Assembly (NCBI GenBank): GCA_031279915.1
Contig: JAITHO010000190.1
Coordinates: 1 to 29,587 of the forward strand
Reading direction: 5' to 3'
DNA: 29,587 bases
DNA from: Tannerellaceae bacterium
GTDB lineage: Bacteria > Bacteroidota > Bacteroidia > Bacteroidales > Tannerellaceae
In this document: positions 563 through 24,300 of the stretch, in pieces
Numbering within the stretch: position 1 is the stretch's first letter
Layout: each line of letters opens with the position of its first letter
Position numbers and translations under genes: made by a program
Notes under the pieces: model-generated
What the model saw: the letters and a program-made list of their open reading frames with translations, nothing else
Databases searched by the model: none
What the model was told of the DNA's origin: nothing

Positions 563-1208
563 AGAAAGATACCACAAAGCACAGCCCAAACCCATACAAA
601 TCAACATTCCGCCCGTTACACATTTAGGCAACGAAATCAGCAGCCCCGCACAACATTCCTTCCCCCCGAAGCCCCCTCCAACCATAGCGCAGCCAATTTT
701 CCCCTCCCGATGAGCATCACCTAATATCCTCATACCGTTATTATTACAAATCAAGCTTCAGCCCCAAAAAATTCCTATAGGAATTTAAAAAAATCCCTAT
801 AGGAATTTTTTAAAATTCTAGTAATGATTTTTTGAAATTCCTATAGGAATTTTTTCAAGGTCCTATAACGACTTTTTTAAGGCCCCAGCATAATCTTTTT
901 GAATCCCACTGCGCCTTTACAAAAGCAAAAAGCAAATGAAGATAATTGCCGCAATAGATAATCCAATCATCCCCATATCCCCTCCAACCATCCCCACAAA
1001 ATCCTTCATACCCCAAATCAATCAAAGACAAATCACCCAACCACGCCGCAGATATATCTCAATAACCCAACCCCCCGTCCCAATGAAAAAAACATAGTCA
1101 TAATAATAACATAAGCCATCCCAACGTATATCATGAAAAAAAATAGGAGGAGAGATAGGAAAAAAGAGATATTTCTGCAGTAATGAAAGCTTTGAAAAAA
1201 AATATTTG
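563..1208. other. Long intergenic region between divergent genes
   Basis: About 650 bases without a credible gene. The short reading frames here (on either strand) have no family signature and strongly biased composition: the plus strand is C-rich and G-poor, with many CCCC runs. The only organised content is the 22-bp palindrome array at about 769-905, listed separately, whose last recognisable unit fades into ordinary sequence near 927. The part near 1130-1200 is A-rich and leads into the promoter at 1209. Confidence 0.6.
769..905. repeat. Tandem 22-bp palindromic repeat array (array A), decaying rightward
   Basis: Units of exactly 22 bp can be laid end to end from 774. Units 1, 2 and 4 carry the core CCTATAGG (centres 777.5, 799.5 and 843.5). 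Units 1 and 4 form the perfect 18-bp palindrome AAATTCCTATAGGAATTT (769-786 and 835-852). Unit 3 (centre 821.5, CTAGTAAT), unit 5 (centre 865.5, CCTATAAC) and unit 6 (centre 887.5, CCCAGCAT) keep phase and the T-run but have lost palindromy. Each unit is a core followed by about six T and some A. The array sits between the receptor/riboswitch promoter (minus) and the DUF308 gene (plus). Confidence 0.85.
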
Positions 1209-1216
1209 TAACTTTG
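1209..1216 (+). promoter_or_regulatory. -7 promoter box for the DUF308 gene
   Basis: TAACTTTG is an exact match to TAnnTTTG. It lies 75 bases before the ATG at 1292. A TTTG at 1191-1194 is closer than the usual -33 spacing, so only the -7 element is well supported. Confidence 0.55.
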
Positions 1217-1291
1217 AACCCTCAACCGGATTACGCATAAATAAATACAGCGACCGGCGCCTATAAAACGATTAGAAGAAGCAAACAGAAA

Positions 1292-1858
1292 ATGATTACA
1301 ACTATTACAAAAAATTCAATGCTCCGCAGTATTCTGGCCATGCTCGCCGGACTGCTGATGATATTATGGCCATCTCAGATGATCCACTATATGGTAATGG
1401 CAATAGGCGCACTATTTATATTAGCCGGCATATACACCCTAGTATTATACGTTCGCAGCAGCGAAACACGCAGAACCGTTCACATAGTAGCCGCAATAGC
1501 AAGCCTGCTGCTCGGAGCATGGCTAATGATAGTACCCAGCTTTTTCATTAATATATTAATGTATATATGGGGAATCCTCCTAGCCCTATCAGGCACACAA
1601 CAGATAGTCGCCCTAATAGCAGCCCGCAAATACACCACAGTACACATCGCCTATTACATATTACCCGCAATAATCATTGCCGCCGGCATAGTAATCATGC
1701 TACATCCAGGCACAGTAATCTCCAAGACATTTATAATATTAGGAGCCCTAAGCCTACTATACGGCATAAACGAACTAATAGGATGGTATATATTTCGCCC
1801 ACAAAAAGCCCCAATCGTGTTGGCAAACGAAGTAGAAGACGCAGATATTATAGAATAA
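1292..1858 (+). CDS. DUF308 / HdeD-family integral membrane protein
   Basis: This 188-residue protein is almost entirely hydrophobic. It has about six membrane segments arranged as three similar helical pairs separated by short loops such as WPSQMIHY, VPSFFINI and HPGTVISK. The recurring pattern of a small-residue helix, a W/V/H-P-S/G turn and another helix is typical of the DUF308 (HdeD-like) family, whose molecular function is unknown; E. coli HdeD is linked to acid resistance at high cell density. The soluble C-terminal tail is acidic (EVEDADIIE). Codon use is distinctive for the window, rich in ATA and CTA, in line with the AT-rich surroundings. It appears to be a single-gene unit with its own promoter at 1209. 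The HU gene follows after 116 bases with its own promoter. Confidence 0.8.
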   Translation: MITTITKNSMLRSILAMLAGLLMILWPSQMIHYMVMAIGALFILAGIYTLVLYVRSSETRRTVHIVAAIASLLLGAWLMIVPSFFINILMYIWGILLALSGTQQIVALIAARKYTTVHIAYYILPAIIIAAGIVIMLHPGTVISKTFIILGALSLLYGINELIGWYIFRPQKAPIVLANEVEDADIIE

Positions 1859-1903
1859 TTAATTATAAACATCGTGGAAACAAAAAATTGCTTGGAAGTT
1901 ATT

Positions 1904-1932
1904 TTGCAGTCTCAGAATATATAATACCTTTG
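1904..1932 (+). promoter_or_regulatory. Promoter for the HU gene
   Basis: TTG at 1904-1906, 18 bases of spacer, then TACCTTTG at 1925-1932, an exact Bacteroidota -7 box. The ATG of the HU gene follows about 42 bases later. Confidence 0.7.
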
Positions 1933-1974
1933 CAAGCAAAATTTTGTAACACCTAACATTAATACTTTTTAGAT

Positions 1975-2247
1975 ATGACAAAAGCAGATATTGTTCGCGA
2001 AATTTCTAAGAATACCGGAATCGACAGACATACGGTATTAACGAGTGTAGAATCTTTCATGGAATTGGTCAAAGATTCGCTGGCCAAGGGAGAAAACGTT
2101 TATTTAAGAGGCTTTGGCAGCTTCATAGTAAAAACAAGAGCGCAAAAAACCGCCCGTAATATTTCAAAGAATACTACGATCATTATTCCGGCGCACAACA
2201 TTCCCTCATTCAAGCCCGCAAAGACCTTTAATGACAAGATTAAGTAA
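1975..2247 (+). CDS. HU/IHF-family DNA-binding protein
   Basis: This 90-residue protein has the normal HU length. It begins MTKADIVREISKNTGI and contains the family signature around VYLRGFGSFIVKTRAQKTARN (residues 43-63), which covers the GFGSF turn and the first strand of the DNA-binding arm. The arm continues with NISKNTTIIIPAHNIPSFKPAK, including the proline that intercalates at DNA kinks. It should act as a homodimeric nucleoid protein that bends DNA; whether it binds the palindrome arrays in this window is unknown. A 32-base gap separates it from the mS38-like gene, so they are probably co-transcribed from 1904-1932. Confidence 0.95.
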   Translation: MTKADIVREISKNTGIDRHTVLTSVESFMELVKDSLAKGENVYLRGFGSFIVKTRAQKTARNISKNTTIIIPAHNIPSFKPAKTFNDKIK

Positions 2248-2279
2248 AATTTGAATGTATAACCATTAAAAGGATTACA

Positions 2280-2369
2280 ATGCCAAGCGGAAAGAAAAGA
2301 AAAAGGCATAAAATGTCGACGCACAAGCGTAAAAAACGATTGAAGAAGAATAGACACAAGAAGAAGTAA
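2280..2369 (+). CDS. 29-residue basic protein, AURKAIP1/COX24 (mS38-like) family
   Basis: A short gene running from ATG to TAA (30 codons) encodes MPSGKKRKRHKMSTHKRKKR followed by LKKNRHKKK. More than half the residues are Lys or Arg. The KRKRHKMxTHKRKKRLKKNRHKK pattern is that of the Bacteroidota AURKAIP1/COX24-domain proteins, relatives of mitochondrial small-subunit ribosomal protein mS38. Its position between HU and RNase G is, from memory, common in Bacteroidales. It most likely binds rRNA in the small subunit. An AAAGGA lies 9 to 14 bases upstream of the ATG. It is followed by the hairpin at 2414-2451. Confidence 0.85.
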   Translation: MPSGKKRKRHKMSTHKRKKRLKKNRHKKK

Positions 2370-2413
2370 GCATTAGCGCTTCTTAAGTTGTCTAAACTTC
2401 CGTAGTTTTTATA

Positions 2414-2451
2414 AGAACAAACTTAATATGTAGACCTTTTAAGTTTGTTCT
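2414..2451 (+). terminator. 13-bp perfect hairpin after the mS38-like gene
   Basis: AGAACAAACTTAA (2414-2426) pairs perfectly with TTAAGTTTGTTCT (2439-2451) across a 12-base loop. T-rich sequence (TTGTATATATTG) follows. It sits 45 bases after the mS38-like stop and 45 bases before the RNase G start. It could be a terminator or attenuator, or a processing and autoregulation site for RNase G, whose leader it would form. Confidence 0.65.
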
Positions 2452-2495
2452 TTGTATATATTGCAAGGTCTAAAACACAAACACCCTATTTTATA

Positions 2496-4064: not shown

Positions 4065-4154
4065 GGAGCTTTCGAAAATCTAAAACCACAGTTCGCAATT
4101 GAATACTTATTATATAATGCAGTAACTGTGATTTTCCGAAGCCATAAGCAAAAA

Positions 4155-4190: not shown

Positions 4191-4243
4191 GGTATGCCGA
4201 GCTATGACGGGCATGTTTGCCCTCTGTTGTGTAATTGTCTGCG

Positions 4244-7428: not shown

Positions 7429-7468
7429 TTATATTCTGTTTTTTAAGTTGATAAATTTTTTAATTTGA

Positions 7469-7572: not shown

Positions 7573-8907
7573 TCAGAGCCCGATTTCCCAGCCTGGCTCG
7601 TAGCTGCGCGACCAGAGGGCTTGGGCGCTCGGAGAGCTGAGGATGTGCCCGTCTGACGGATCAATGGCTAAGCGTTCGCCGGTGCGCCAGGCTATGTTTC
7701 CGAGCTGAACGAGTACTGTGCTCTTATGCAGCTCGGCTACGTCGGCATTGGGGCGACGGTTATTCTTGATGGCGTCTAAGAAATCCGCTATATGGATGGC
7801 ATCCAGATGGGCGGCAGGGCTCGCCGTGTTTGTGCCGTCGATTACGTCGGTGGATGCAACCTCCTTGACGAGTTTGTTGCGCTGGTCGAAGATGCGATAG
7901 CCGTTATGACCTGTTTCCATTGAGCCTTCCGTTCCGTAGAAGACTTCGCCGCGGTCGCCTCCCTCGGAGTGTCGACCGTTGCAGCTACGTCCCTCCCAAG
8001 TGACAAGGCAGTCGTTGCCGAATTGCAGGTTGATGACTTGAGTGTCGGGACATTCCCAATCGTCCTTGAAGGCGAAGCGAGAACCTTCGGAGCTGACTTG
8101 CGTGGGATAATCAACCCCCAGCCCCCAGCGGATGAGGTCTATCTCATGCGTACCGTTATTCAACGCTTCCCCTGTGCCCCAATGCCAAAACCAATGCCAG
8201 TTATAATGCACCAGATTATCGCGATAACTGCGACGGGGAGCCGGCCCCTGCCACAAATCGAAGTCAAGCCCCGAAGGAGCAACCGACGCTTTGCCTAGCC
8301 CTATCGACGTCCTACGGTTAGTATACCATCCACGAGCATAGTATGCCTTGCCTATCGCCCCGCTTTGAAGCTCCCTTATTGCCTCTATCACCCCCGGCCA
8401 GGAGCGGCGCTGGGCCCCTATCTGAACTATCCTGTTATACTTGCGGGCGGCGGCCACCATCAGCTCGCCCTCTCGAGGATTATGTCCGCAAGGCTTCTCC
8501 CCATAAACGTGCTTGCCCGCCTGACAGGCCATGACAGCCGCCGCTGCATGCCAGTGATCGGGAGTGGCGTAATAGAGGGCGTCAACGCTTTTGTCGGCAA
8601 GAAGCTTACGGATGTCCTTCTCCGTCTTCGGATTGCCGCCGGCGTCGCTCACTGCCTTCACTCCCTTGGCCAAAGCTTTTTCGTCGACGTCGCATACGTA
8701 GCACACGTTCGCCTGCTTGTTTTGCTGGAATAGTTGCGACATGACGGCCCCGCGGCCATTCGTTCCCATGATTGCTACCTGGATGCGCTCGTTCGCTCCA
8801 ACTATATTGGCGTAACTGCGCGCGCTGAGGCTCATACCGCCAAGGGTGAGGCCCAATCCGGCAGCCGTTGTTTGCTTGATAAATGTTCTTCGTGACGTAT
8901 TCTTCAT
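7573..8907 (-). CDS. Tat-exported Gfo/Idh/MocA-family oxidoreductase
   Basis: This 444-residue protein begins MKNTSRRTFIKQTTAAGLGL, a twin-arginine signal peptide (SRRTFIK), so it is folded with its cofactor and exported to the periplasm. A Rossmann NAD(P)-binding domain follows (VAIMGTNGRGAVMSQLF, then CDVDEKALAKG). The family motif HWHAAAAVMACQAGKHVYGEKP around residues 117-139 includes the EKP lysine. The C-terminal substrate domain contains WHWFWHWGTGEALNNGTHEIDLIRWGL. In Bacteroidota, exported family members of this type act on sugars or glycoside derivatives, often by oxidising C3 or similar positions; the exact substrate cannot be read here. It stands alone, with its promoter at 8978. 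No glycoside hydrolase or SusCD pair is adjacent. Confidence 0.9.
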   Translation of the reverse strand: MKNTSRRTFIKQTTAAGLGLTLGGMSLSARSYANIVGANERIQVAIMGTNGRGAVMSQLFQQNKQANVCYVCDVDEKALAKGVKAVSDAGGNPKTEKDIRKLLADKSVDALYYATPDHWHAAAAVMACQAGKHVYGEKPCGHNPREGELMVAAARKYNRIVQIGAQRRSWPGVIEAIRELQSGAIGKAYYARGWYTNRRTSIGLGKASVAPSGLDFDLWQGPAPRRSYRDNLVHYNWHWFWHWGTGEALNNGTHEIDLIRWGLGVDYPTQVSSEGSRFAFKDDWECPDTQVINLQFGNDCLVTWEGRSCNGRHSEGGDRGEVFYGTEGSMETGHNGYRIFDQRNKLVKEVASTDVIDGTNTASPAAHLDAIHIADFLDAIKNNRRPNADVAELHKSTVLVQLGNIAWRTGERLAIDPSDGHILSSPSAQALWSRSYEPGWEIGL

Positions 8908-8999: not shown

Positions 9000-9265
9000 G
9001 CTGCATTGCAACCCATTCCCCTCCTCTCCCGCCCTCCTATTCCCTCCCTACATAAGCCCGAACGGCGCTCTCCTCCATCCATCCCTCTAAAAAATGTATA
9101 TGAGGCGCTTGTATGGGGGGAGATTTTCGACCATAGAATAAAGCCGTCCGTCAATCCCTTGAGGGCTTTTTTATATGGAGCGCTTGATGGTATTAGGGTC
9201 GAAAATATTCATCCCCTACAAATATCCATACATACATTTGATATTGCCACTTTGAAAATTTTTTT
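9000..9265. other. Intergenic segment with hairpin inside a 10-bp inverted repeat (possible small RNA)
   Basis: No gene is credible here. The arms ATTTTCGACC (9123-9132) and GGTCGAAAAT (9197-9206) bracket an inner terminator-like hairpin: AAAGCC (9140-9145) pairs with GGCTTT (9164-9169), with an inner TCAA/TTGA stem and a T-run to 9172. A sequence TATATG(A/G)(G/A)GCGCTTG followed by ATGG occurs twice, near 9098 and 9172. On the minus strand GATATTTG near 9220-9230 is one base away from a -7 box. The segment may make a short RNA, but this is weak. Confidence 0.35.
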
Positions 9266-9268
9266 GTG

Positions 9269-9576
9269 AGAGCTTTCAAGAACTTGAAAAGTTAAAAATA
9301 ATTTTATTGGAGCTTTTCAAGTTCTTGAAAAGCTGAAAACATTTATATGGTGCTTTTCAAGTTCTTGAAAAGCTCCAAAACTTTCTTGTAGGACTTTTCA
9401 AGAGCTTGAAAAGCTTAAAACATTTCTTATGACGCTTTTCAAGTTCTTGAAAAGCTAAAACTATTTCTCATGAGACTTTTCAAGAGCTTGAAAAGCTAAA
9501 AACATTTCTTATGGCGCTTTTCAAGTTCTTGAAAAGTTGAAACTGTTTTTGTTGGGGCTTTTCAAGAACTTGAAAC
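9269..9576. repeat. Tandem 41-bp palindromic repeat array (array B), eight copies
   Basis: Eight copies of CTTTTCAAG-NN-CTTGAAAAG (9-bp arms, 2-base centre) are centred at 9281.5, 9322.5, 9362.5, 9403.5, 9444.5, 9485.5, 9526.5 and 9567.5. The spacing is 41 bp six times and 40 bp once. The centre dinucleotides in order are AA, TT, TT, AG, TT, AG, TT, AA. The first copy lacks one T in its left arm and the last has a shortened right arm. The spacers between copies are also related (CTAAAACATTTCTTATGGCG type). It lies between the divergent oxidoreductase (minus) and histidine kinase (plus) genes. Confidence 0.95.
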
Positions 9577-9736
9577 TGAAAAAAATTTTTTTTCAAAAAA
9601 AAGTTTGTGGAGAGGAGGGCTCGCCATAATGTTGGATGGCTTGCTATGGATGGGGTGGGGATTCGCTGCGAATGGCCGGCGGGCTTGCTCCTCGGGCTTA
9701 TCTTGGCGGCATTGACGGCGTATTGCATCTGCGGTT

Positions 9737-9766: not shown

Positions 9767-11233
9767 ATGGAACGAAGGATAAGAATCGTTTGGGCGCTGT
9801 CGCTCATCTCTGCTGCGCTTGCGATAGGAGTGCAGGCTTATTGGCTATACAATCAATATAAATATGTTATAGATACTTATGCGGAGGATACGGCTGCGCG
9901 GGTGTTCGACGTTTGCGAGCGGGAGTATGAGATGCGCAAGGCGGCCGATAAGCGTCCGATGTCGATCATGATGCAGCGTAACACGGCGATTGTTGATTCG
10001 GCTGCGATCTCGTCGAGGCAGGCCAACATGGTGTTTGCCTTCTCTATGAAGACGCCGATTGACAGCCCCTCGATCGAGATGCCAAAGCGATTGGATTCGA
10101 TCAACCTGCAGCCGGTTAGCGAGGTGGGTCATCGTGTGATGAACCTCTCTATCGTCTCGCCAAATGATCTTTCAGACGATGCTTTGCAGCAGGGCATACG
10201 GAGGGCCATCACCGAATCCTCCGTGCCCTTCAGCCACGCCTTGCTCGACTCTCTCCTCAGGGCTGAGATGCCCGACATCAGCTACGTGATGGAGCCCTGG
10301 GAGGCGGCGGATTCTGCCAACTATGCGTCGCGATGGGAAAAAACCGGGGGGCTGGCGCATCCCCTCCTGAAGATTCGATATGCATATAGTCCGCTCGAGC
10401 GCAAAGGGATGGTTATCCTCCTGCCTATCCCGCCGCAGCCTATCTTTGGGAGGATGGCCTTTCAGCTTGGCATAAGCTTCGGCCTCCTCCTCTTGCTAAC
10501 CGGCTCTTTTCTTTTCCAAATCAAAACTATTATGAAGCAAAAGAAGCTGGGCGAACTCAGGGAGAGCTTCGTCAATACGATGGTTCACGAACTGAAGCGG
10601 CCGGTGCAAACCCTCAAGACCATGCTGGCTTTCCTGGGGGATAGGGAGATGAGCAGCGATGTGGATGCAAGCCAACAGGCTTTGAATGATTCGATGTTTG
10701 AGATAGATAATCTGTCGGCATACCTTAATAAGCTGAAGGATTTGGTGCGAACGGATAGCGAGAATACTCCTCTGCATCTCTCGCGCTTTAATATTCGAGA
10801 ACTGATAGAAAAGGTGGTGCGCCTAAGGCCTGCTATCGCTCCGGAAAAGAAGGTTAGCATCAATATTCGCTTCGATATGGCTTCGGAAATAATAGAGGCC
10901 GATGCGGTGCACCTGGCGAACGTGCTGAGCAATTTGATTGAGAACGCTATCAAGTATTCGGGAAGGGAGGTAAGGATTGAAGTACGGGCTGAAGCGCGGG
11001 GGAAGGAGCTTTGGCTATCGGTATCCGACGATGGCATCGGCGTTCCGGCAGCCGAACGCAAGCAGGTGTTCGATAAGTTCTATCGAGCATCCAACCTGCC
11101 CGACAGCAGCTTGCCTGGCCTTGGGCTCGGACTTAGCTACGTGAAGCTGATTGCCGAAGCTCATCGCGGAAGGGTTGTCCTACGCGGTCGAGAGGGAGGC
11201 GGATCTGTCGTTCAATTAATATTCCCGATCTGA
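9767..11233 (+). CDS. Membrane sensor histidine kinase
   Basis: This 488-residue protein has an N-terminal membrane helix (about residues 7-24), a periplasmic sensor region of about 200 residues with no recognised domain, and a second helix near 226-247 (LGISFGLLLLLTGSFLF). The HisKA dimerisation domain has the H-box VHELKRPVQTL; His274 should be the phosphorylated residue. The HATPase domain shows the N-box LSNLIENAIKYS (Asn389, Asn393), G1 DDGIGVP (Asp421/422) and G2 GLGLGLSYVK, so all catalytic boxes are intact. It should autophosphorylate in response to an envelope signal and pass phosphate to the regulator encoded 3 bases downstream. The stimulus cannot be read. The H-box has KRP where many kinases have RTP or KTP, as is common in Bacteroidota. 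Confidence 0.95.
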   Translation: MERRIRIVWALSLISAALAIGVQAYWLYNQYKYVIDTYAEDTAARVFDVCEREYEMRKAADKRPMSIMMQRNTAIVDSAAISSRQANMVFAFSMKTPIDSPSIEMPKRLDSINLQPVSEVGHRVMNLSIVSPNDLSDDALQQGIRRAITESSVPFSHALLDSLLRAEMPDISYVMEPWEAADSANYASRWEKTGGLAHPLLKIRYAYSPLERKGMVILLPIPPQPIFGRMAFQLGISFGLLLLLTGSFLFQIKTIMKQKKLGELRESFVNTMVHELKRPVQTLKTMLAFLGDREMSSDVDASQQALNDSMFEIDNLSAYLNKLKDLVRTDSENTPLHLSRFNIRELIEKVVRLRPAIAPEKKVSINIRFDMASEIIEADAVHLANVLSNLIENAIKYSGREVRIEVRAEARGKELWLSVSDDGIGVPAAERKQVFDKFYRASNLPDSSLPGLGLGLSYVKLIAEAHRGRVVLRGREGGGSVVQLIFPI

Positions 11234-14610: not shown

Positions 14611-15654
14611 TTACTTGGAGACTGTGTTGGCAAACACTATCCACGGACGGTAGCCCTCGTAGGGTTCGTCGTACGTAATCGTTATCACATCGCCCGCCTT
14701 GAAGGCGTCAGCTGTAGCAGGCTGGCCTTTCTCCGTGAAAACCGTATAAGCATCGAACAGCACATTCCTTATTTCCGAAGGAGCGGGAGCCGTTACGAAC
14801 ATCAGGCTGTCTGTCATCCCCGTAAGGGTACAAACCAGGCTCGACTGAGGGAACTTCGTAAGCTCATCCACGTCGTACAGGTGCGGCTCCGTGTACGTTC
14901 CCTGCGGAACGAGCTCGGCCCATACGATATTGGTATCGGGATGAAGCATGCCATCTTCGCCAAGGAGCGACTGGAAGCCAAGGCGGGTGCGACCAACCTC
15001 GGCATTGAGGTAAAAGTAGTAAAGCGGCGGAGTGAAATCCTTGATCACCTCATGCTCCGTCAGCTTCTTGTGCGAACTGAAGATAGCAGTGTAGTTCGCA
15101 CCGTCGTTCAGCAGGCAGCTATACACACCCGCTGGGCCCCGGAAAGCAATCATCCCGTCGCTAACCACTATCTGCATGCCCGGAGGAGTATTGAGCGGCG
15201 GCTCAAGGTTTTCGGGCTTGTCGTGCAGCTCAACGTAAGCCGTGAAAGCCGAAACCGTAACGAGCAGATCCCCCTGGCCGCAAATTTGGCGCAAGAACGG
15301 GAAGCGATCGCCGCTAACCGTATAAAACAGAGCCCCTGATATCTGTATCGCATCATAAGGATAGCTCACGTAAGGCCGGTAGCCGTCGGCACGCAGCAAA
15401 GGCGCCCGGTTTGGGGCCTGCGTCGCGCCGAGATCCGTTCGCGTATCGAAGCTCCTTGTTGCAGCTATTGCCAGCAGCCTTCCGGCATCGTCGCGCTGCA
15501 TTGTTCCGACAGCAACTTCGAGCTCCGGGTAATCAATCGTAGGCTCATGCTCATCATCCGGGTATCCCTCCGTTTTCAGGCAGGAAACAGTCATTAACGG
15601 CAGCGCCGCAGCAAGCATAAACGCCCACATTCCGTTCAAAATTCTTTTAGTCAT
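14611..15654 (-). CDS. Lipoprotein of unknown function, 347 residues
   Basis: The N-terminus MTKRILNGMWAFMLAAALPL leads to the lipobox MTVSC; Cys25 should be lipidated after signal peptidase II cleavage. The mature start KTEGYPDDEHE is acidic, which in Bacteroidota can direct lipoproteins to the outer-membrane surface. The body has alternating hydrophobic stretches typical of beta-sandwich proteins (DAIQISGALFYTVSGDRF, LLVTVSAFTAYVEL, DVITITYDEPYEGYRPWIVF). I recognise no domain. It follows the smaller lipoprotein gene after 30 bases and is probably in the same operon. No SusC/SusD or fimbrial partner is adjacent. Confidence 0.8.
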   Translation of the reverse strand: MTKRILNGMWAFMLAAALPLMTVSCLKTEGYPDDEHEPTIDYPELEVAVGTMQRDDAGRLLAIAATRSFDTRTDLGATQAPNRAPLLRADGYRPYVSYPYDAIQISGALFYTVSGDRFPFLRQICGQGDLLVTVSAFTAYVELHDKPENLEPPLNTPPGMQIVVSDGMIAFRGPAGVYSCLLNDGANYTAIFSSHKKLTEHEVIKDFTPPLYYFYLNAEVGRTRLGFQSLLGEDGMLHPDTNIVWAELVPQGTYTEPHLYDVDELTKFPQSSLVCTLTGMTDSLMFVTAPAPSEIRNVLFDAYTVFTEKGQPATADAFKAGDVITITYDEPYEGYRPWIVFANTVSK

Positions 15655-15684: not shown

Positions 15685-16215
15685 TTAATTGCTTCTGTAT
15701 AAATTCTCCTTCTTTAGTTGCTCCATCAGCCTGGCCCATTCATGTTCAATGGCCTTGCTGTTCTGATCGCGCACCCATTGCTGCTGAGCGGGGTCGGGAA
15801 GGAGCGCCACCTCCGGAAATCCGTCTAAAATGAAGTATTTGTTGTTGATGATATCATAGTGCAAAACCGGTTGATTGATGATTCGGTAGTTCCAAACTCC
15901 AATATATACCGGGGTAAATAAGACGAACTCATCGGATATAAAAAACTGTATTCCGAAATCCCTAACCTCGTTGATTATCGACATGTTCGAATAATTTTGA
16001 CGGAAACGCAGCTCCCTTGTTGTCTCATTAAACCAAAGAATATCCTTGCCCGTAAAAACTACATGTTTGTCGTTATCATATTGCGGATCAAAATAGGCCG
16101 CCACCGCAACAATCGCGGTTTCGGCAGGCGCATTATAAGGCTCATCCGCTTCAGGACGGCAGCCTCCCAACAAAAGCAGGACGGCAAGCATCGAAAAACA
16201 AAATAATCTATTCAT
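15685..16215 (-). CDS. Small lipoprotein of unknown function, 176 residues
   Basis: The sequence MNRLFCFSMLAVLLLLGGC gives a signal peptide with lipobox LLGGC (Cys19), followed by an acidic linker RPEADEPYNAPAE. The remaining 140 residues are rich in aromatic and beta-forming residues (HVVFTGKDILWFNETTRELRF, FGIQFFISDEFVLFTPVYIGVWNY) and end in a charged helix (KAIEHEWARLMEQLKKEN). I recognise no domain. It is the first gene of the lipoprotein pair and is immediately preceded by the long palindrome array C. No clear TAnnTTTG box is visible upstream. Confidence 0.78.
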   Translation of the reverse strand: MNRLFCFSMLAVLLLLGGCRPEADEPYNAPAETAIVAVAAYFDPQYDNDKHVVFTGKDILWFNETTRELRFRQNYSNMSIINEVRDFGIQFFISDEFVLFTPVYIGVWNYRIINQPVLHYDIINNKYFILDGFPEVALLPDPAQQQWVRDQNSKAIEHEWARLMEQLKKENLYRSN

Positions 16216-16381: not shown

Positions 16382-16905
16382 CAACTCCGTCCGGGGTTCA
16401 TGGCGTTTTTTTGCAGATTGTCCCAGCTCCGTCCGGAGTTTGCCTTGTTTTTTCGAAATTGCTCGAACGCCGTCCGGGGTTTGCCTGGTTTTTTCGAAAT
16501 TGCTTGAACTCCGTCCGGAGTTTGCCTTGTTTTTTCGAAATTGCTTGAACTCCGTCCGGAGTTTGCCTCGTTTTTCCGAAATTGCTCGAACTCCGTCCGG
16601 GGTTTGCCCCGTTTTTCCGAAATTGCTCGAACTCCGTCCGGGGTTTGCCTCGTTTTTCCGAAATTGCTCGAACTCCGTCCGGGGGTTGCCTGGTTTTTTT
16701 CGAAATTGCTCGAACTCCGTCCGGAGTTTGCCTGGTTTTTTTCGAAATTGCTTGAACTCCGTCCGGAGTTTGCCCTGTTTTTTCCGAAATGGCTCGAACT
16801 CCGTCCGGAGTTTGCCTGGTTTTCCGAAAAACGAGCCAAACTCCGGACGGAGTTGGCCTCAATCTCCCAAAATAGCCCCGACTCCGTCCGGAGTTTGCAC
16901 AAATT
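16382..16905. repeat. Tandem 41/42-bp palindromic repeat array (array C), thirteen copies
   Basis: Thirteen cores of the form AACTCCG-TC-CGGAGTT (7-bp arms, 2-base centre) are centred at 16390.5, 16432.5, 16473.5, 16514.5, 16555.5, 16596.5, 16637.5, 16678.5, 16720.5, 16762.5, 16804.5, 16846.5 and 16887.5. Spacing is 41 or 42 bp throughout; units with a longer T-run in the spacer are 42. The spacer is conserved too (TTGCCTGGTTTTTTCGAAAT, then TGCTCG). The twelfth core is reversed (centre GA). Several right arms carry GGGG for GGAG, which keeps T-G wobble pairing if the plus strand is transcribed. Stop-free frames run through it on both strands, but the 41-bp units shift frame, so I do not call a gene. 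Confidence 0.95.
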
Positions 16906-16941: not shown

Positions 16942-19530
16942 TCAATTTTGTAATGGAAGTTGCTCCCGCTCCCGCTCAATTATCACCTGCTTTTGTTCGG
17001 GTTTTTTGGCGCCCCAATTTCCTAATCTCAAGTTTATTTTCAGGAGAAGTATATGGCTATATGCCTTCATATTTAAAAGAGTTTTCTCGCTATATATATG
17101 AGTATTTATTTCTTTAATTCTATTGTATCTGATTCCCGGTAAAAATGGAGGAGTATAGGATAAAGCAAGAGAAATACGGTCGTTCCACAGTTCTTTTTGC
17201 AGAGCAATATTCCAATGATCCGAACCTGAAGTCTGAAATCCCTGCCAAATAATATCTCTTCGCATATTCCTGTAATAAGCAAGTTGAGCGCCAAACGAAA
17301 TAGCAGCGTTATAGTAATTAATTTCGGAGAAAAACATGCATCCGTTTAGGGCATTATTGATTCCTTTGTGCATGGCCTCCTCGCGGTAAAACATCAGCGA
17401 ATTTTTGAATCGAAAATAATTCCCAAGCTCCCTATCGTAGGATATTTGAAGGTTATACGACCTGAAGTCAACGTTATCAAAAGTCCTGTAAAATTTGTAG
17501 GCTACAAGGTTATATATCTCGCTGATACCGTCTTTAGTATAGTTAAAATGTCCGGATAACTTTAAGCTGTTTGCAAAGTCAATTTCCAGTAATACGTTAT
17601 GCTTCACCGACGATTTAAGAGCCGGATTACCCGACTGCGACATAAAAGTATCCACCACAATACTCATGGGGCTAAGTTGATATAATGAAGGCTGCGATTG
17701 GCGTGCATGATAGCCGGCTGTGAGCTTAATTGCATTGCTTATTCTGTAATTAAAGTGAAGCAATGGCAACATAGCTGAGGAATATTGCGCCCTATCCCTG
17801 TCCTTACTTCGAGTTTGTTCCAATACAATTCCAGCCTTAAGTTCTATCTTATTAGACGGATAAAACGACAGATAAGCGAAACCTTTATTTCGCACTTCGG
17901 TATAATCCAGAAATCCTAGGCCACGGCTGTTTGTCGATGCATATTCACGGCGGATATTTGAATATCCAAGCTCCGCCGATATGGCATCCGACAGAATATA
18001 ACGAGCCTCAATATTTCCCACCGTATGGTTTTTATATTCGCTGTAATAATCGTCGTAACGGAGGCCTGATGTTTCCTCTCTATGATATTCGTTCTCTATC
18101 CAATTGTAGTAATAATTGTATGACAAATCAGCATAAAGATGCAGCCTGTTGATAAATTGCGCCTGATAATAAAGCGTAGTCGTGAAAGCTTTAGCCATAG
18201 TAAGATTTCGAGATACATTAGTCCGTCTATAATCGGAGAAAATTGTATCTGCATATCCCATACTGTATCTCGATTTAGAATCAATATTTCCCGAAAGATA
18301 ATTAGTTTGCAGCCCGATTAATTGCCGGCCAGGCAGTTTATAGTTAAGCCCTCCGTTGAGCGTATGATTGGAATTTTTATAGAGATTATTGGGAGCATTT
18401 TCCGGCAAAGAAATCAAGTTTAAATAATCGTAGCGAAGGAATTTGTCCGAATAAATTTCCCTGATGTCCGCATCGTGCGACCATGAAGCCGATAGGTTTA
18501 TTTTGCCCGCAGAGTAACTCAATCCTACTCCCGAATGATTCCCAGCTATTGCATTGTTATCGCCCGAAAAATTTAATGAAGTTGAATGGAATGCATTGAT
18601 GTCGTATCCGCTATAATCCTTCTTGAGAATGAAGTTAATGATGGCCGCATAATCGTCTGAAACAAAACGTCCGGACACAGCATGAATAAGCTCGATCGAA
18701 TGTATTCTGTGAGGAGATAAATGCTTAAAGTAGGAAGCTTGATGCTCTATTCCGTCGACTATCATCAGCACATTAGCATGATGATTAACCAGAACTGTTT
18801 CCAATGCTTCATCAAATAATACTCCCGGAATCCTGTCTAATAACTCCAGTGCATTAGTTGCTCCTGATCGCATTTGAGGTGTGACTAAATAGCTCGAGCG
18901 ATTGATTCCTTTTCGGATTATATTATCGGCTGTTATTACAGTTTCGTTTAGCTGAAATTCTCTTGGCTTAAGGAAGAATATCCCTAAGTCGCCTGCGCTA
19001 TAAATGTACTTGGATATACTCTCATATCCCAAGTAACTAATCCGAATCATGGAAGGTATTTCCCTGCTTTCTATCCTGAAACTTCCATCGCTTGAAGTTA
19101 CTCCTGCAACTATAATATTGCCGTCGTGACGAAGCAAACTTATGGTCGCATATTCCAAAGCTTCCGACGAAACTTTGTCGAGCGCTACGCCACGGAATAC
19201 AGAGTTATTCGCTTCGGCAAAAGGATAGACCGGGATTATATTCTTTCGCCCTACGGCATCCGGAACTATAACGTAAACGTTCTCGATTTTCTCCACATGA
19301 AATGGTTTATCTCTCAACAGCCATTCGATAGCATCTTCATGAGTTGCGAACGATTCTGCAACCGATACTTTATATCCCGACAGAGCCTTATCATCAAACG
19401 ATATTTCTACATTCAGCATGCTAAGAACCTTGCTAAGCGGAACATTGTTAACCTCAACTTTGACGCTTTGCGATCGGCCTGTGAAAACAATCGCAGCCAG
19501 CATAATCGTAAGGATAATCCGTTTGTTCAC
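16942..19530 (-). CDS. TonB-dependent outer-membrane receptor with STN domain
   Basis: This 862-residue protein starts at GTG 19530, directly after the TAG stop of fecR. The signal peptide (MNKRIILTIMLAAIVFTGRS) is followed by a secretin/TonB short N-terminal (STN) domain, residues about 22-90 (VEVNNVPLSKVLSMLNVEISFDDKAL). Next comes a carboxypeptidase-regulatory-like beta-sandwich near 112-195 (RGVALDKVSSEALEYATISLL), then a plug-like region (LELLDRIPGVLFDE, VLMIVDGIEHQ, RIHSIELIHAVSGRFVSDDYAAIINFILKK) and a long beta-barrel with many aromatic strands. The STN domain signals to the FecR protein encoded just upstream, so this receptor should both import a ligand and switch on its own sigma factor. 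No SusD partner is present, so a siderophore, metal complex or peptide is more likely than a large glycan, but that is inference. Confidence 0.92.
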   Translation of the reverse strand: MNKRIILTIMLAAIVFTGRSQSVKVEVNNVPLSKVLSMLNVEISFDDKALSGYKVSVAESFATHEDAIEWLLRDKPFHVEKIENVYVIVPDAVGRKNIIPVYPFAEANNSVFRGVALDKVSSEALEYATISLLRHDGNIIVAGVTSSDGSFRIESREIPSMIRISYLGYESISKYIYSAGDLGIFFLKPREFQLNETVITADNIIRKGINRSSYLVTPQMRSGATNALELLDRIPGVLFDEALETVLVNHHANVLMIVDGIEHQASYFKHLSPHRIHSIELIHAVSGRFVSDDYAAIINFILKKDYSGYDINAFHSTSLNFSGDNNAIAGNHSGVGLSYSAGKINLSASWSHDADIREIYSDKFLRYDYLNLISLPENAPNNLYKNSNHTLNGGLNYKLPGRQLIGLQTNYLSGNIDSKSRYSMGYADTIFSDYRRTNVSRNLTMAKAFTTTLYYQAQFINRLHLYADLSYNYYYNWIENEYHREETSGLRYDDYYSEYKNHTVGNIEARYILSDAISAELGYSNIRREYASTNSRGLGFLDYTEVRNKGFAYLSFYPSNKIELKAGIVLEQTRSKDRDRAQYSSAMLPLLHFNYRISNAIKLTAGYHARQSQPSLYQLSPMSIVVDTFMSQSGNPALKSSVKHNVLLEIDFANSLKLSGHFNYTKDGISEIYNLVAYKFYRTFDNVDFRSYNLQISYDRELGNYFRFKNSLMFYREEAMHKGINNALNGCMFFSEINYYNAAISFGAQLAYYRNMRRDIIWQGFQTSGSDHWNIALQKELWNDRISLALSYTPPFLPGIRYNRIKEINTHIYSEKTLLNMKAYSHILLLKINLRLGNWGAKKPEQKQVIIEREREQLPLQN

Positions 19531-20289
19531 CTATTCGATTTCGAATGTAATACCGAAAGGCTTTCCAACTATTTCAAGAACCGTTTCTGCTTGTTCCGTT
19601 TGCGAGAAGTTGCCCGTATAAAGATGATTTAATTCGGAGCTTGTAGCTACCTTAATATTATATTGCCGCTCGATTTCAGCTATTACTTCTGCAAGTGGAG
19701 TTTCAACGAAAACGAGTTTGCCATGCATCCATTCCGGAGCTTGTCCGGCAGCTATTTTCATGTCCGATCCGTCGCAAATTGCCTTCATTCCGGAGCGGAG
19801 GATGGCGGACCCTCGCTCGCTGATAACTTCTACGCTTCCGCTAACACAAGTCACTCTGTACTTTCCATTCCTGGAATAAACATTGAAGACCGTCCCCAGC
19901 GCTTTCACCTTATTCTTTCCGGAAATAACGCTGAAGGTACTGCCTTTCTTTACCTCGAAATATCCTTCGCCTTCGAGCCTTAACGTTCGACCTAAAAACC
20001 ATCCGAGCGGACGATAAGTTATCCTGCTTCCGGCATTCAAGGTTAGCTGCGAATTGTCGGGCAATGTGATAGCAGTATGTTCGCCGGCTGAGGATATTCT
20101 TGTTACGGAATAAAGGTTGGCAATAGCGATAGCCAATATAATAGCGGCGGCTATGTATTGCCATACTTTGATGCGATAGCGGCGGCTGTTCACTGGGGAA
20201 TTGGCGAAGGAATCGGCGAAGGCTTTGTTCCATATATCTTCCTTGCTTTGCGGCCATTTGGGCTTGATTTTTATGTCGCTTGCGTTCAT
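19531..20289 (-). CDS. FecR-family anti-sigma factor
   Basis: This 252-residue protein has a cytoplasmic N-terminal part (about 1-42) that should bind the sigma factor, one membrane helix near 44-62 (YIAAAIILAIAIANLY), and a periplasmic FecR domain at about 72-175 (HTAITLPDNSQLTLNAGSRI, LEGEGYFEVKKGSTFSVISGKNKVKALGTVFNVY). The C-terminal DUF4974-like segment (KLVFVETPLAEVIAEIERQYNIKV, then a GNFSQTEQAETVLEIV stretch) is typical of Bacteroidota FecR proteins and resembles an STN fold. It lies between the sigma factor (12 bases upstream) and the receptor (0 bases downstream), in the classic order. Confidence 0.95.
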   Translation of the reverse strand: MNASDIKIKPKWPQSKEDIWNKAFADSFANSPVNSRRYRIKVWQYIAAAIILAIAIANLYSVTRISSAGEHTAITLPDNSQLTLNAGSRITYRPLGWFLGRTLRLEGEGYFEVKKGSTFSVISGKNKVKALGTVFNVYSRNGKYRVTCVSGSVEVISERGSAILRSGMKAICDGSDMKIAAGQAPEWMHGKLVFVETPLAEVIAEIERQYNIKVATSSELNHLYTGNFSQTEQAETVLEIVGKPFGITFEIE

Positions 20290-20301
20290 CTTATTTTGAG
20301 T

Positions 20302-20790
20302 TTATAATAGTTTGCTTCTCATTAATCTTAGCGCGGCGCTAATATGTTTCTCTACGGTTTTCACGCTTATGCTTAAACATTCGGCTATCTCGCGGTACTT
20401 CATTTCGTCTTCGCGGTGCATGAGGAATACTGTGCGCTGCATCTCCGGCATCTGCTCGATTGCGGAGGAGTATGCGGCGGCGGTTTCGTTGTACATGGCT
20501 ATGTCTTCGGGAGAAGGCTCGGTATGGATTTCCGTTGACATGCTTTGCTGGAAGTTCATTTGGCTGCATATTTTCCTGTAATTGCTGACGTATGCATCGG
20601 AGGCTATCTTGTACAGCAATGCTTTGATGTTGTCGGGGTTTAGCGAGTTGCGTTTTTCCCATATCCGCAGGAAGACATCTTGGGCTACGTCTGAGGCTGT
20701 GATGGTATCGCCGCAGCGGTAGAAGATGTAGGTGCGGATTGCGTCGAAGTGTTCGCTGAATAGGCTCTTGAATTCTGTTTCGCTTAGCAT
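20302..20790 (-). CDS. ECF-type RNA polymerase sigma factor (FecI-like)
   Basis: I choose ATG 20790 (162 residues, MLSETEFKSLFSEHFDAIRT). The frame stays open to an ATG at 20862, but those 24 extra residues are unlike the family and would begin inside the hairpin at 20864. Sigma region 2 is FDAIRTYIFYRCGDTITASDVAQDVFLRIWEKR. Region 4 is EQMPEMQRTVFLMHREDEMKYREIAECLSISVKTVEKHISAALRLMR, with the helix-turn-helix in the last part. It should direct RNA polymerase to the receptor operon when released by the FecR protein. It is the first gene of the sigma - anti-sigma - receptor operon. Confidence 0.95.
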   Translation of the reverse strand: MLSETEFKSLFSEHFDAIRTYIFYRCGDTITASDVAQDVFLRIWEKRNSLNPDNIKALLYKIASDAYVSNYRKICSQMNFQQSMSTEIHTEPSPEDIAMYNETAAAYSSAIEQMPEMQRTVFLMHREDEMKYREIAECLSISVKTVEKHISAALRLMRSKLL

Positions 20791-20863
20791 TGATAGCTGG
20801 TTGATGTGTCTATGAGTTATACCGCATGAATGCTGAAATACCCTCATTTTAATTAAAAGCAAT

Positions 20864-20890
20864 GGAGGCTCCTATCAAGATAGAAGCCTC
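20864..20890 (-). terminator. Terminator hairpin after the Gly-rich receptor gene
   Basis: GGAGGCT (20864-20870) pairs with AGCCTCC (20884-20890), with an inner TATC-AA-GATA stem. On the minus strand it is followed by ATTGCTTTTAATT. It separates the receptor at 20945-23845 from the sigma factor operon. Confidence 0.8.
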
Positions 20891-20944
20891 CTACTACTAT
20901 TGCAACTAATACGTACTATTAAAACTCTGTTGAGATCTTTATTA

Positions 20945-23845
20945 TCATCCGCCTGGGCCTCTGAATCCTCCGCCCTGACGTCCTCCGCCTGGAGGCGGGC
21001 CGCCTGGGCCTCTGTCTTCAAAGCGACGGTTGCCGCCGAAAGCGTCTTGCATGTTGGCTCCTCCCTTGAATATGCTAAAGCGATAGATGAAGTGTAGTAT
21101 AAAGTAGCTCGTTAGCGTATTGGTGCGGGATTCGGAGTACATGGCGTCGGTTGAGGAGTTGGATATATTGGCTCGCTGCTGGAGGATGTCGTATACTTTC
21201 ATGCGGAATGTTCCCGTGCCCTTGAGCATTGGGATGGGCTTGGAGGCAATGGAGGCATTCCACATTGTTTCCTTCTGCGTATATGTGTCGGAGTAACCTG
21301 AGGTGGTTGAATATGTAATGTCGCTCTCTATGACTAAGGGCAGTACCGGCGCTATATTATATAGGTATAGGGAGGTGGATCCTCCAACGCCATAGCGGAA
21401 GGTGTTGAGATTGTCGCCTGGGCGGGTGGAGTAGCGATAGCTGTTGAAGTTGATGTTAGCGTTCAGGCCTATGTCGAAATAGTTGGAACGATAGTCGATG
21501 CCGGCGCGTTCGCTTAGGGTGAGCGATTTGGTATTGCTTGTGACGGCGTCCATGATCGAATTGCTGTTGCCGTACATTCCCATGGTCATTGAGTTGATGG
21601 AGAACTTTGAGAACTGTTCTTTGTAGCGGAGGGGAGTGTTCATCATGAATCGGAGATTGCCGCTGTAGTTGCCGTCGATGTTGGCGTAGGTTGTATGCTT
21701 TACTCCGCCGGGAAGATTGCTTACGTTGTTGACTATGGCGTTCAGCGTGTAATTACCGCCGGCCATGAGCATGAATGCGGTTTGCTTTTCGGGGAGGAAG
21801 CGCCTGAACATGATGTTCAGGTTGTTGTTGTAACTGGGATCAAGGTCCTTGTTGCCAATCACTATGTTGTTCGGATCGGTTACGTCGCGCACTTGCTGGA
21901 GCTGGGTCATGCTCGGTTCGTTGGCTCGTCCGTTGTAATCTATTCGCAGATTTGACTGCCGGTTGAACATATAGTTAAATTGTAGCATGGGCGAGAAGTT
22001 GAGCACCGAGCGCGATATTTCTTCGACTACCTCTCCGTCTTTGTATATCTCCCCTTTGCTTGATGCGGGATCGAGGTTGGCTCCGAGGGTGAAGTTGTAC
22101 TTGGGGCGGACGGCCTTGAAGCTTAGGCTGGCCCGCTGCGATGTGAAGTCGTAGTTGTACTTTTCGATGTAGCTCGTATCGCGTATGGTATAGTTGCCGT
22201 TGGCGTCGGCCATGTAGATTGGCCGATCGGAGCTCTGGTTGCGCTGCGAGTAGCGATAGCTAAGCTGCAGGAAATTGTTGCCGCCTAAGGGTTCGACCCA
22301 TGATGCATACAGGCGATAGTTGTAATTGAAGTTCTTGTAGCTATAAATCTGATCAATCAGATAGTCGGGAGTGCCGTCGAAGTAGAGCGAGTTCGAGTAG
22401 TTCTTCCCATCTTCTTTGGTGCGATTATATTCGCCTTCGATGGATGCGCTCAAGACGCGGCCCTTATTGTTGAGCTTGCGGCTGATGTCGAGCTCGCCTT
22501 CGAATCCCATGCCGCTGCCGTCGGACGATGAGCGCGACTCAACGTCGCTCAGCTTGTTGTGGGCTTCGCTGGGATTGCGTCCGAGCCCGAGCTTGGTGTT
22601 CGATGTCTCTTCCTGGGCGATATGGCTGCCGCTGAAGCTGAGGTTAGGGCGGAATATTATGGTTGTCATCGTATCCGGACGCCATTCCATGCGAACATTG
22701 GCGCGCACGTTGTCGTTAACGCGGTTGCCGGATGAGTTGCGATCGGTGAAGCGGGTTGTATCGGCACGCAGGAATGTTTGCGAGCTACTGTTAGTGATGG
22801 CAGTATTATCGGTGCCGTTGTACCGAATATTGCCGGTGATGGTAAGTTTGGGGGAGAACTCTCTGCTGAAGTTCAGGCCGACGTTGCCCGAGGAGGTGAT
22901 TCCATTGCCCCCGCCTCCGCCGAACATCATCCTGCCTCCGCCGCCACCCTGCATCATTGAGGAGGCAAAATCCGTGAAGCCCATGTTGTTCGTATTGTTC
23001 AGCCCGCCCATAAGGGTGATCTGATTATTGTTCCAAAAGCGATTAACGATGGCATTACCCTCGTAGCGCTCCTTGCTGCCGTAGCCGGCCATGGCATTCC
23101 CGAACCAGCCTTCCTTCATCCCAGGTTTGATTACGAGATTTATAACCGTTTCCTCGTTGCCGTCGTCAAAGCCTGTCATCATCGTCATGTCGCTCTTGCG
23201 ATCAACCACCTGCACCTTATCGACCATGGCTGCGGGGAGATTCTTCGACGCTACCTTCGGATCGTCGGAGAAGAACTCTTTGCCATCCACCAATATCTTC
23301 TTGATCTCTTTGCCGTTGACCGTTATCTTCCCATCGCTGCTCACCTCGGCGCCGGGCATGCGCTTCACCAAATCTTCCAGCGCCGCGCCTTCCTGAACCT
23401 TATATGAATCTGCATTATATTCAATGGTATCATTCCTGACCTGAACTTCGGCCGCTTTGCCTACAACTACGGCTTCGCTCAACAGGATGGAGGATTCCTG
23501 CATTTCTACCCTACCAACGTTCACCGGATTGGTGCGACCGGAGATTTGCAACAACTGGTAAACAGGCTCGAAGCCAACGTAAGTCACATGCATTAAATAA
23601 TTGCCCGCCCTCACATTCTTGATGGAAAAACTGCCGTTGCGCTCGCTGGCCGCACCGGTCACGAAGGCGCTGTCGCGAACGCTCAGAAGACGAACGGTGG
23701 CTTGCTCAACCGGCTCGCGGTTACTCTTCTCGACGACTGAACCGCGTATCTCAACGCTCGCGCCGCCCGATCGCTGTTGCGCCATCATTGCTGGCATAAC
23801 GGCAAGAAGTAAAACTAATAGTGGGATGATTTTGCTGTTTCGCAT
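20945..23845 (-). CDS. TonB-dependent receptor / outer-membrane beta-barrel protein with Gly-rich tail
   Basis: This 966-residue protein has a signal peptide (MRNSKIIPLLVLLLAVMPAM, cut near MAQQ). A carboxypeptidase-regulatory-like domain covers about residues 30-115 (VEIRGSVVEKSNREPVEQATVRLL). A plug-like region at 120-235 includes EAVVVGKAAEVQVRNDTIEYNAD, LVKRMPGAEVSSDGKITVNGKEIKKILVDGKEFF and KNLPAAMVDKVQVVDRKSD. A beta-barrel of the OMP_b-brl_3 type follows. Unusual glycine runs lie near residues 299-318 (MQGGGGGRMMFGGGGGNG, a surface or periplasmic loop). The extreme C-terminus is Gly/Pro-rich (RGPGGPPPGGGRQGGGFRG) instead of ending in an aromatic barrel-signal strand. It has no SusD partner and no adjacent dedicated regulator. 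Ligand unknown. Confidence 0.9.
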   Translation of the reverse strand: MRNSKIIPLLVLLLAVMPAMMAQQRSGGASVEIRGSVVEKSNREPVEQATVRLLSVRDSAFVTGAASERNGSFSIKNVRAGNYLMHVTYVGFEPVYQLLQISGRTNPVNVGRVEMQESSILLSEAVVVGKAAEVQVRNDTIEYNADSYKVQEGAALEDLVKRMPGAEVSSDGKITVNGKEIKKILVDGKEFFSDDPKVASKNLPAAMVDKVQVVDRKSDMTMMTGFDDGNEETVINLVIKPGMKEGWFGNAMAGYGSKERYEGNAIVNRFWNNNQITLMGGLNNTNNMGFTDFASSMMQGGGGGRMMFGGGGGNGITSSGNVGLNFSREFSPKLTITGNIRYNGTDNTAITNSSSQTFLRADTTRFTDRNSSGNRVNDNVRANVRMEWRPDTMTTIIFRPNLSFSGSHIAQEETSNTKLGLGRNPSEAHNKLSDVESRSSSDGSGMGFEGELDISRKLNNKGRVLSASIEGEYNRTKEDGKNYSNSLYFDGTPDYLIDQIYSYKNFNYNYRLYASWVEPLGGNNFLQLSYRYSQRNQSSDRPIYMADANGNYTIRDTSYIEKYNYDFTSQRASLSFKAVRPKYNFTLGANLDPASSKGEIYKDGEVVEEISRSVLNFSPMLQFNYMFNRQSNLRIDYNGRANEPSMTQLQQVRDVTDPNNIVIGNKDLDPSYNNNLNIMFRRFLPEKQTAFMLMAGGNYTLNAIVNNVSNLPGGVKHTTYANIDGNYSGNLRFMMNTPLRYKEQFSKFSINSMTMGMYGNSNSIMDAVTSNTKSLTLSERAGIDYRSNYFDIGLNANINFNSYRYSTRPGDNLNTFRYGVGGSTSLYLYNIAPVLPLVIESDITYSTTSGYSDTYTQKETMWNASIASKPIPMLKGTGTFRMKVYDILQQRANISNSSTDAMYSESRTNTLTSYFILHFIYRFSIFKGGANMQDAFGGNRRFEDRGPGGPPPGGGRQGGGFRGPGG

Positions 23846-24004
23846 GATTAAAATATATAATTCGTTTTGTATATGGATAGACAGCAGGCTTATAATTTGG
23901 TTTAATACCTTAATGAAAAATTAAGAATCGACAATAAACCTACGCCTTGGTTGCTATCACCAAAATATTTCGGAAACGACAATACAGTATCTCTGTTCCC
24001 AAAA

Positions 24005-24300
24005 AAATGATTTCGCCTCAACTAGGTACCTGTTTAGTCCCAAAAAAAAGTTTTGGGGATAATCAGGGACTAGATTGAGGCAAAAAAACCCTTGGGGAGG
24101 AAGATTGGTGGCTGATATTCCTCCGTAAAAAAGATTTTGCGACAGAATGGCAGCTGTTTTGCCTCATTAAATTCGTTTTGGCGACAGAATGGCGGCATTT
24201 TTCTTCCCCAAAAACGTTTTGGGCACAAACTAGAGACTAGGTTGGTTCCAAAACTTTTTTTTGGGAAAAATCAGGCTCTAGGATGAGAGAAATTTTTTTT
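24005..24300. repeat. Degenerate ~41-bp periodic array (array D)
   Basis: TTTTGGG-type blocks recur at about 24011, 24051, 24090, 24135, 24176, 24217, 24259 and 24297, with steps of 38 to 45 bp and three of 41-42 in a row. Three blocks complete a palindrome of the CCCAAAA-n-TTTTGGG kind (24040-24057, 24207-24223, 24248-24265). GCGACAGAATGGC occurs twice, 42 bp apart (about 24139 and 24181). ACTAG-type motifs recur as GGGACTAGATTGAGGC, GAGACTAGGTTGG and GGCTCTAGGATGAG. It looks like an old, diverged array of the same kind as B and C. Confidence 0.6.

Follow-up and report, generated by a model that had tools for sequence, protein, structure and literature searches.

Intergenic tandem arrays in a Tannerellaceae genome and its genus keep a step of about 21 or 41 bp across many unit sequences

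How do repeats of different sequence come to share one spacing? The question is raised by a stretch of 29,587 nucleotides, hereafter the window, which is contig C47 of the genome of a Tannerellaceae bacterium (G000; a draft of 2.09 Mb, 60.75 % complete) and carries four intergenic arrays, A to D, of short tandem palindromes. We find that A to D belong to a genome-wide, genus-concentrated class of fixed-step intergenic satellite arrays. The step is one dyad every ~20.5-22 bp, or two helical turns, mostly in the form of a 41-bp unit with a strong and a weaker dyad.

The sample from G000 consisted of the window and 40 further contigs (428,550 of 2,085,321 bases, 20.6 %), in which tandem arrays were counted with Tandem Repeats Finder (TRF) at a period of at least 9 and a score of at least 80. 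An unselected subset of 34 contigs (325,636 bases) leaves out the window and six contigs chosen for B arrays. With one genome per species, the comparison covered the nearest relative, G017 (168,003 bases, many stretches picked by synteny), 16 more species of that genus (728,325 bases), 15 genomes representing other genera in the same order (357,645 bases) and 68 named loci (1,139,899 bases; one titled Kiritimatiellae, the rest Bacteroidota by title). Judged by one oxidoreductase protein, the closest named relatives are uncultured Tannerella or Tannerellaceae, Parabacteroides and Porphyromonadaceae (12 loci, 67-78 % identity), and many of these genomes presumably come from termite guts. The marker protein intended for building a genus tree could not be located in G006, G008, G012, G014 or G017.

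Table 1. Positions of the four arrays and of the genes beside them in the window
Feature	Position	Strand	Remarks
Array A	768..880 (TRF)	no strand	22-bp repeat of AAAATTCCTATAGGAATTTTTT, x 5.1
DUF308 protein	1292..1858	+	right of array A
GFO/IDH/MocA oxidoreductase	7573..8907	-	left of array B, divergent gap
Array B	9261..9590	no strand	TRF 41 bp x 8.1; 8 dyads
Histidine kinase	9767..11233	+	right of array B, divergent gap
ORF without Pfam match	15685..16215	-	left of array C
Array C	16382..16905	no strand	TRF 41 bp x 9.6 (16427-16823), 92 % matches, spacings 41-42
Beta-barrel outer-membrane protein	16942..19530	-	right of array C; array 3' of gene
Beta-barrel outer-membrane protein	20945..23845	-	left of array D; array 5' of gene
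Array D	24005..24301	no strand	degenerate lattice, alternating dyads, 20-21.5 bp steps
PAP2 family protein	24665..25393	-	right of array D

Direct reading and TRF both find the four arrays where the first-pass annotation had placed them (Table 1), and its periods of 22 bp for A and 41 bp for B and C are borne out by TRF and by the dyad spacings. The perfect dyad of A, AAATTCCTATAGGAATTT, has centres at 777, 799 and 843, which are 22 and 44 bp apart, and another at 810. In B the dyad CTTTTCAAG-nn-CTTGAAAAG, centred on TT, AA or AG, recurs at steps of 41, 40, 41, 41, 41, 41 and 41 bp. The dyad of C is AACTCCG-TC-CGGAGTT, with the centre flipped to GA in one unit (16839-16854), and the spacer holds a second, weak dyad, TTTCGAAA. 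The short arms with a two-base centre described for B and C were correctly seen and measure 7-11 bp. For D a period of about 41 bp had been proposed; TRF gives a unit of 42 bp, in just 2.3 copies (24127-24222), but the dyads step by 20-21.5 bp. Those with 6-7 of 8 pairs lie at 24193, 24214.5, 24234.5 and 24255.5 and also at 24027 and 24047.5, and the array includes the dyad CCCAAAAACGTTTTGGG (24207-24223). Because the surviving dyads of D are 20-21.5 bp apart, a dyad step joins A, at 22 bp, and D to the 41-bp arrays.

Palindromes with arms of at least 7 number 31 in the window (overlaps counted), compared to 5-15 in 20 first-order Markov simulations. As a single strand, B folds far better than its shuffles (z -5.9 and -5.2); C folds no better than its own (z -1.3 and -1.4). 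The only Rfam match in the window is a tRNA at 27807-27879, and none falls on the arrays. A CRISPR array was considered and rejected: it is the whole 41-bp unit that repeats, as in C at 92 % matches, rather than a repeat set between unique spacers.

The description of each array as lying upstream of a minus-strand gene is incomplete, since A and B lie between divergent ORFs and C and D between co-directional minus-strand genes. One of these genes, at 15685-16215, had been labelled a lipoprotein, a label that the Pfam search did not bear out. The minus strand of 16942-20862 encodes in a row a sigma-70-like factor, an FecR-like protein and a beta-barrel outer-membrane protein; sigma/anti-sigma/receptor sets like this one are common in Bacteroidota.

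Is the shared period a property of the window or of the genome? The G000 sample contains 67 arrays, 51 with a period of 39-43, nine with 20-23 and seven with another period, and the commonest period is 41 (30/67). In the unselected contigs the two size classes account for 34 and 8 of 48 arrays, respectively. A TRF-independent measure, the exact recurrence of 8-mers in the non-coding sequence of these 34 contigs, reaches 21.5 per 1000 at lag 41; the same test in these contigs gives 11.2 at lag 82, 10.7 at lag 42 and a median of 0.06. The genome-wide excess at 41 bp, on which a refuting test had been set beforehand, is therefore present. In the nearest relative, 26 of 27 arrays have a period of 40-42, and 8-mers recur at lag 41 with a frequency of 46.0 per 1000, where the median is 0.04. 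Arrays of the two size classes together occupy 2.75 % of the bases sampled in G000 and 3.47 % of those sampled in G017. Distances between units, counted in 40 arrays with values outside 30-52 excluded, are 40-42 bp in 253 of 258 cases and equal the mode of their own array in 220. The claim of one spacing rule for many sequences thus holds across the G000 sample and the nearest relative.

Beyond these two genomes, 41 of the 51 arrays from the 16 further species have periods of 21-24 or 40-44, and array density varies within the genus: G003 has none, and G011 has 16.8 per 100 kb, the highest value. For comparison, the 15 genomes of other genera yielded six arrays (periods 19, 21, 51, 82, 106 and 121) and no lag-41 peak, and the 68 named loci yielded 12, of which one has a period of 39, two have 21-22 and nine have other values. 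Within what was sampled, the arrays are concentrated in this genus.

To what extent do the units differ in sequence? A circular, strand-blind comparison of 67 unit consensi from G000 and G017 gave 24 clusters under a lenient and 33 under a stricter setting, the biggest holding 31/67 and 14/67 arrays, respectively. The view of wholly unrelated sequences is not supported: the clusters are many, but for 5.1 % of unit pairs the similarity lies beyond the 99.9 % quantile of the null, and gap D is weakly similar between species. Given this excess similarity and the shared motifs (GAAAGC and CGGAAA are among those over-represented), the arrays are not wholly unrelated. No universal motif runs through the 67 units, and one ancestral profile of 41 positions for all arrays was rejected as weak (expectation-maximisation, leave-cluster-out, 11/67 at p<0.05). 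The idea that each array has a private core is refuted by recurrences on other contigs of G000. The B core is found in seven contigs, the window's among them. The C core recurs in C16, and C139 and C142 show short weak matches to it; the A core recurs in C2 and C14, and C10 has a degenerate form of it. An A-type array in G000 (L027) matches G017 at C56 and C126, and the CCAAAA-TTTTGG half of D is common to L012, L028 and L036.

Two candidate origins of the step within the unit were rejected. Duplication of a 20.5-bp sequence would leave internal identity, and identity at lags 20-22 is 0.257-0.265, barely above that at neighbouring lags. Helically phased A-tracts or curved DNA give a z of 3.2-4.7 at harmonic 4 and a stronger one, 5.9-9.3, at harmonic 3, and a purely helical A-tract code for the step is accordingly unsupported. 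In the aligned 41-bp units of G000 and G017, positions +5 to +8 from the main dyad tend towards purines and A/T, +9 towards G/C and +10 to +13 towards pyrimidines. This may be a weak code common to the units, but the null spread is wide and the pattern carries no weight in our reading.

We next consider the same intergenic places in two species. With the arrays masked, five simple collinear gaps with arrays in G000 could be paired with G017 (B, C, D, L011:9489-10171 and L045:1663-2062), and all five hold 40-42 bp arrays in G017. Unit similarity across these gaps is graded. One gap shows strong similarity (score 38, 0/1000 shuffles). Similarity is weak in D, where the two G017 arrays score 17 (p 0.001) and 6 (p 0.83), and in L011, with scores of 12 (p 0.026) and 11 (p 0.065). 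Neither B, with a score of 11 (p 0.09), nor C, with 9 (p 0.145), reaches significance between the two genomes. The predicted change of core at constant period in orthologous gaps is largely confirmed, with similarity running from strong to none. In a third species (L130), the ortholog of the gene beside B has a 41-bp array of other sequence 230 bp upstream, a case found at one of 12 loci inspected, one of which had 236 upstream bases only. Several other array-bearing gaps of G000 lie at synteny breaks and are unpairable with G017, and G017 lacks a 7.7-kb interval of G000 (L027:766-8475) that contains arrays at 804 and 8176; in G017 just 53 bp separate the flanks of this interval.

Where G000 and G017 differ in gene order, at synteny breaks and at one 6.8-kb inversion, there are 40-42 bp arrays alongside (L045:9743-10429 versus G017 L204:5817-13235; L011:3922-4338; L011:17356-17980). 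The arrays beside them may be recombination sites or may simply mark long gaps that tolerate breaks. Also on L011 (contig C64 of G000), positions 15327-15457 contain a dispersed repeat of ~125 bp; over 35 copies of it, 90-100 % identical, are among the G017 matches listed. The segment 24538-24649 of the window, 92 % identical to L079:14994-15104 at a non-orthologous place, is possibly related to it.

The arrays are restricted to long gaps: they occur in 27/33 gaps of at least 600 bp, 19/33 of 400-599, 5/41 of 200-399 and 0/215 below 200 bp, figures to which the arrays contribute by lengthening the gaps in which they are counted. According to a simple longest-ORF caller, from which all gaps and orientations were taken, 24 of 86 arrays are at contig edges, 15 are inside called ORFs (several of these being short ORFs mostly within the array itself) and the other 47 lie between genes. 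Tandem, divergent and convergent placements of these 47 number 27/11/9, compared to 131/44/36 for gaps of at least 50 bp, and array orientation relative to genes is neutral. Arrays of terminators, promoters or operators were rejected on the ground that the orientation mix is that of the background, and coding tandem repeats on the ground that the commonest period, 41, is no multiple of three and that 15/86 arrays fall in ORFs that are crudely called.

Mirror symmetry follows the same step. On average the best dyad of a unit has 6.52 of 8 positions paired, where shuffles give 5.34 (z 14.9); the dyad half a period away has 3.70, where shuffles give 3.03 (z 6.5), and other phases score slightly low (z -2.1). 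Dyads at the full and half period indicate a basic step of ~20.5-22 bp per dyad, uniting A, D and the 41-bp arrays. Exact arms of at least 7 are found in 31/67 units, where 1.95 are expected, and 25 of these 31 have centres of 0-2 bases, which are better suited to DNA dyads than to RNA loops. The claim of palindromes in every array fails: tested singly, 19/59 units reach p<0.05 and 40/59 do not, and 24 of 33 short-period arrays of the genus are without a significant dyad (p<0.05). Where two arrays of different sequence adjoin (L209), their dyads are 42 bp apart across the border; the other five adjacent pairs gave no such comparison.

Both centre orientations occur inside single arrays, namely B (AA, TT, AG), C (TC, one GA) and C16 (GA, TC). 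In the pooled counts (TT 24, AA 20; TC 11, GA 6), true flips are confounded with the orientation in which each array as a whole lies, and the evidence used here is therefore confined to mixtures inside one array. Template switching between inverted repeats (quasipalindromes) yields matched arms and inverted spacers, according to the portion of PMC8604942 available to us. The flipped centres within B, C and C16 match what such switching would give.

Selection on spacing had been suggested, and indels bear on it. Among 241 adjacent unit pairs from 44 arrays, 23 contain both an insertion and a deletion (12.6 expected, sd 3.3) and 40 contain just one kind (53.1 expected, sd 4.5), where the expectation assumes independent indels at each array's own rate and 1 and 0 of 100 runs, respectively, were as extreme. 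The compensated indels favour held spacing, though modestly, as clustered changes could mimic compensation, and the suggestion gains modest support from them. The same 241 pairs differ by 1048 substitutions, with ~0.04 net-length-changing indels per substitution. The drift in period predicted from the indel rate has an SD of 1.1-1.8 bp, ~1.5-2.5x the spread observed among clusters (0.7).

Taken together, these results suggest that spacing and symmetry, more than sequence, are kept in the arrays. The reading we prefer, at a probability of roughly 0.4, is a genus-specific satellite whose sequence drifts while spacing and dyads are held, perhaps for a putative dimeric architectural protein. Unit sequences would turn over by replication slippage, through growth and homogenisation, and template switching at hairpins would provide the matched arms and flipped centres. 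The putative protein, a DNA binder reading mainly shape, would occupy the dyads on one helix face; spacing and symmetry would be held because of it, and the arrays might thereby act as spacers or insulators between transcription units. This reading sits uneasily with the 40/59 units that singly have no significant dyad, the lack of a universal motif or orientation preference, the modest compensation signal, a predicted neutral drift only ~1.5-2.5x that observed and the loss of the 7.7-kb array-bearing interval in G017. Almost as probable is a satellite of common descent that has no function. In this case one or a few ancestral 21/41-bp repeats would have spread in the genus and drifted in place by slippage and homogenisation, substitutions erasing similarity faster than the rarer indels change the period; template switching at hairpins would symmetrise the units, half-period dyad included, and long gaps would merely tolerate the arrays. 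Relatedness beyond chance (5.1 % of pairs; a lenient cluster of 31/67), shared short motifs, residual similarity at gaps D and L011, the low rate of net-length-changing indels (~0.04 per substitution), the neutral orientation and the two centre orientations within B, C and the C16 array all fit common descent, which is harder to square with the weak common profile (11/67), a period spread somewhat tighter than predicted, the excess of compensated indels and the array retained in five of five simple collinear gaps. It is this persistence, with the compensated indels and the half-period dyad, that puts the putative architectural protein slightly ahead.

Alternatively, new arrays could arise repeatedly from local non-coding sequence through a copying or duplicating mechanism whose step is fixed at ~41 nt (or 21). 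Arrays without dyads keep the same period, clusters are many and the arrays are concentrated in one genus, as such a process would have it; dispersed families and the residual similarity in orthologous gaps point instead to descent, we know of no enzyme with such a copying step, and we consider the process improbable. Still less probable are mobile palindromes of the REP/BIME type spread by a Y1 (RAYT) transposase, despite the palindromic, intergenic character of the arrays and their dispersed families. Y1_Tnp was found neither in G000 (60.75 % complete) nor in 11 of 21 genomes searched, nine of these 11 in the genus, and is present in three genus species (G004, G007 and G012). Scored anywhere in the unit, GTAG occurs in 6/77 units against 20.2 (sd 4.1) in shuffles and CGTC in 21/77 against 17.9 (sd 3.7), and the arrays are not depleted between divergent genes. 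Fragmented draft genomes with 24/86 arrays at contig edges might raise the suspicion of an assembly artefact, such as loops in a de Bruijn graph built at k near 21 or 41. Such an artefact is very hard to credit given units that differ within arrays (1048 substitutions in 241 adjacent pairs), periods spread over 40-42, the dyads, the avoidance of short gaps and one locus at which two genomes carry homologous arrays (score 38, 0/1000 shuffles).

It is conceivable, if doubtful, that the arrays form a chromosome-wide dyad lattice, in which a putative architectural protein would read dyads two helical turns apart nearly regardless of sequence and arrays at conserved intergenic places would change sequence fully while the step is held. 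In eukaryotic satellites a constant unit length across sequences reflects packaging, and a unit length constant over dozens of repeat sequences, in most long gaps, resembles them. If true, the lattice would be a bacterial counterpart of packaging-phased satellites. A bacterial case of constant unit length would point to a new architectural protein with a two-turn register or to a fixed-step mutational process. We know of no packaging protein for such bacterial arrays.

Bacterial intergenic tandem repeats are an already known kind, within which the arrays fall. VNTRs and intergenic minisatellites are head-to-tail intergenic repeats whose copy number varies between loci and among strains of a species. 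The arrays found here share the head-to-tail intergenic layout and the variation between loci and, unlike VNTRs, keep one unit length across many sequence clusters, with dyads recurring at half the period. Phased operators and plasmid iterons repeat protein sites about every two helical turns; the arrays differ from them in having neither a shared core sequence nor a single locus. The parts of the open-access literature reached by our search do not describe such arrays. The closest described bacterial kind there is REP elements and BIMEs, with GTAG and CGTC super-families, which lie mostly between unidirectional and convergent ORFs and are associated with the RAYT (Y1) transposase (PMC3733652, as far as the text was available). 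Like them, the arrays are small, palindromic, mainly intergenic and present as several dispersed families per genome. Unlike them, the arrays are tandem with a fixed step, form 24-33 clusters without orientation preference, show no GTAG/CGTC enrichment in their units and come from a genome (60.75 % complete) in which no Y1 transposase was found. With quasipalindrome template switching (PMC8604942, in the same portion) they share TT/AA and TC/GA centres within one array; such switching would account for the symmetry and not for the fixed step. Eukaryotic satellite DNA of nucleosomal unit length combines fast sequence turnover with a conserved unit length (PMC8122249, in the excerpt available); unlike it, the arrays are bacterial, with units of ~21/41 bp, a few hundred bases each, and are spread over intergenic gaps.
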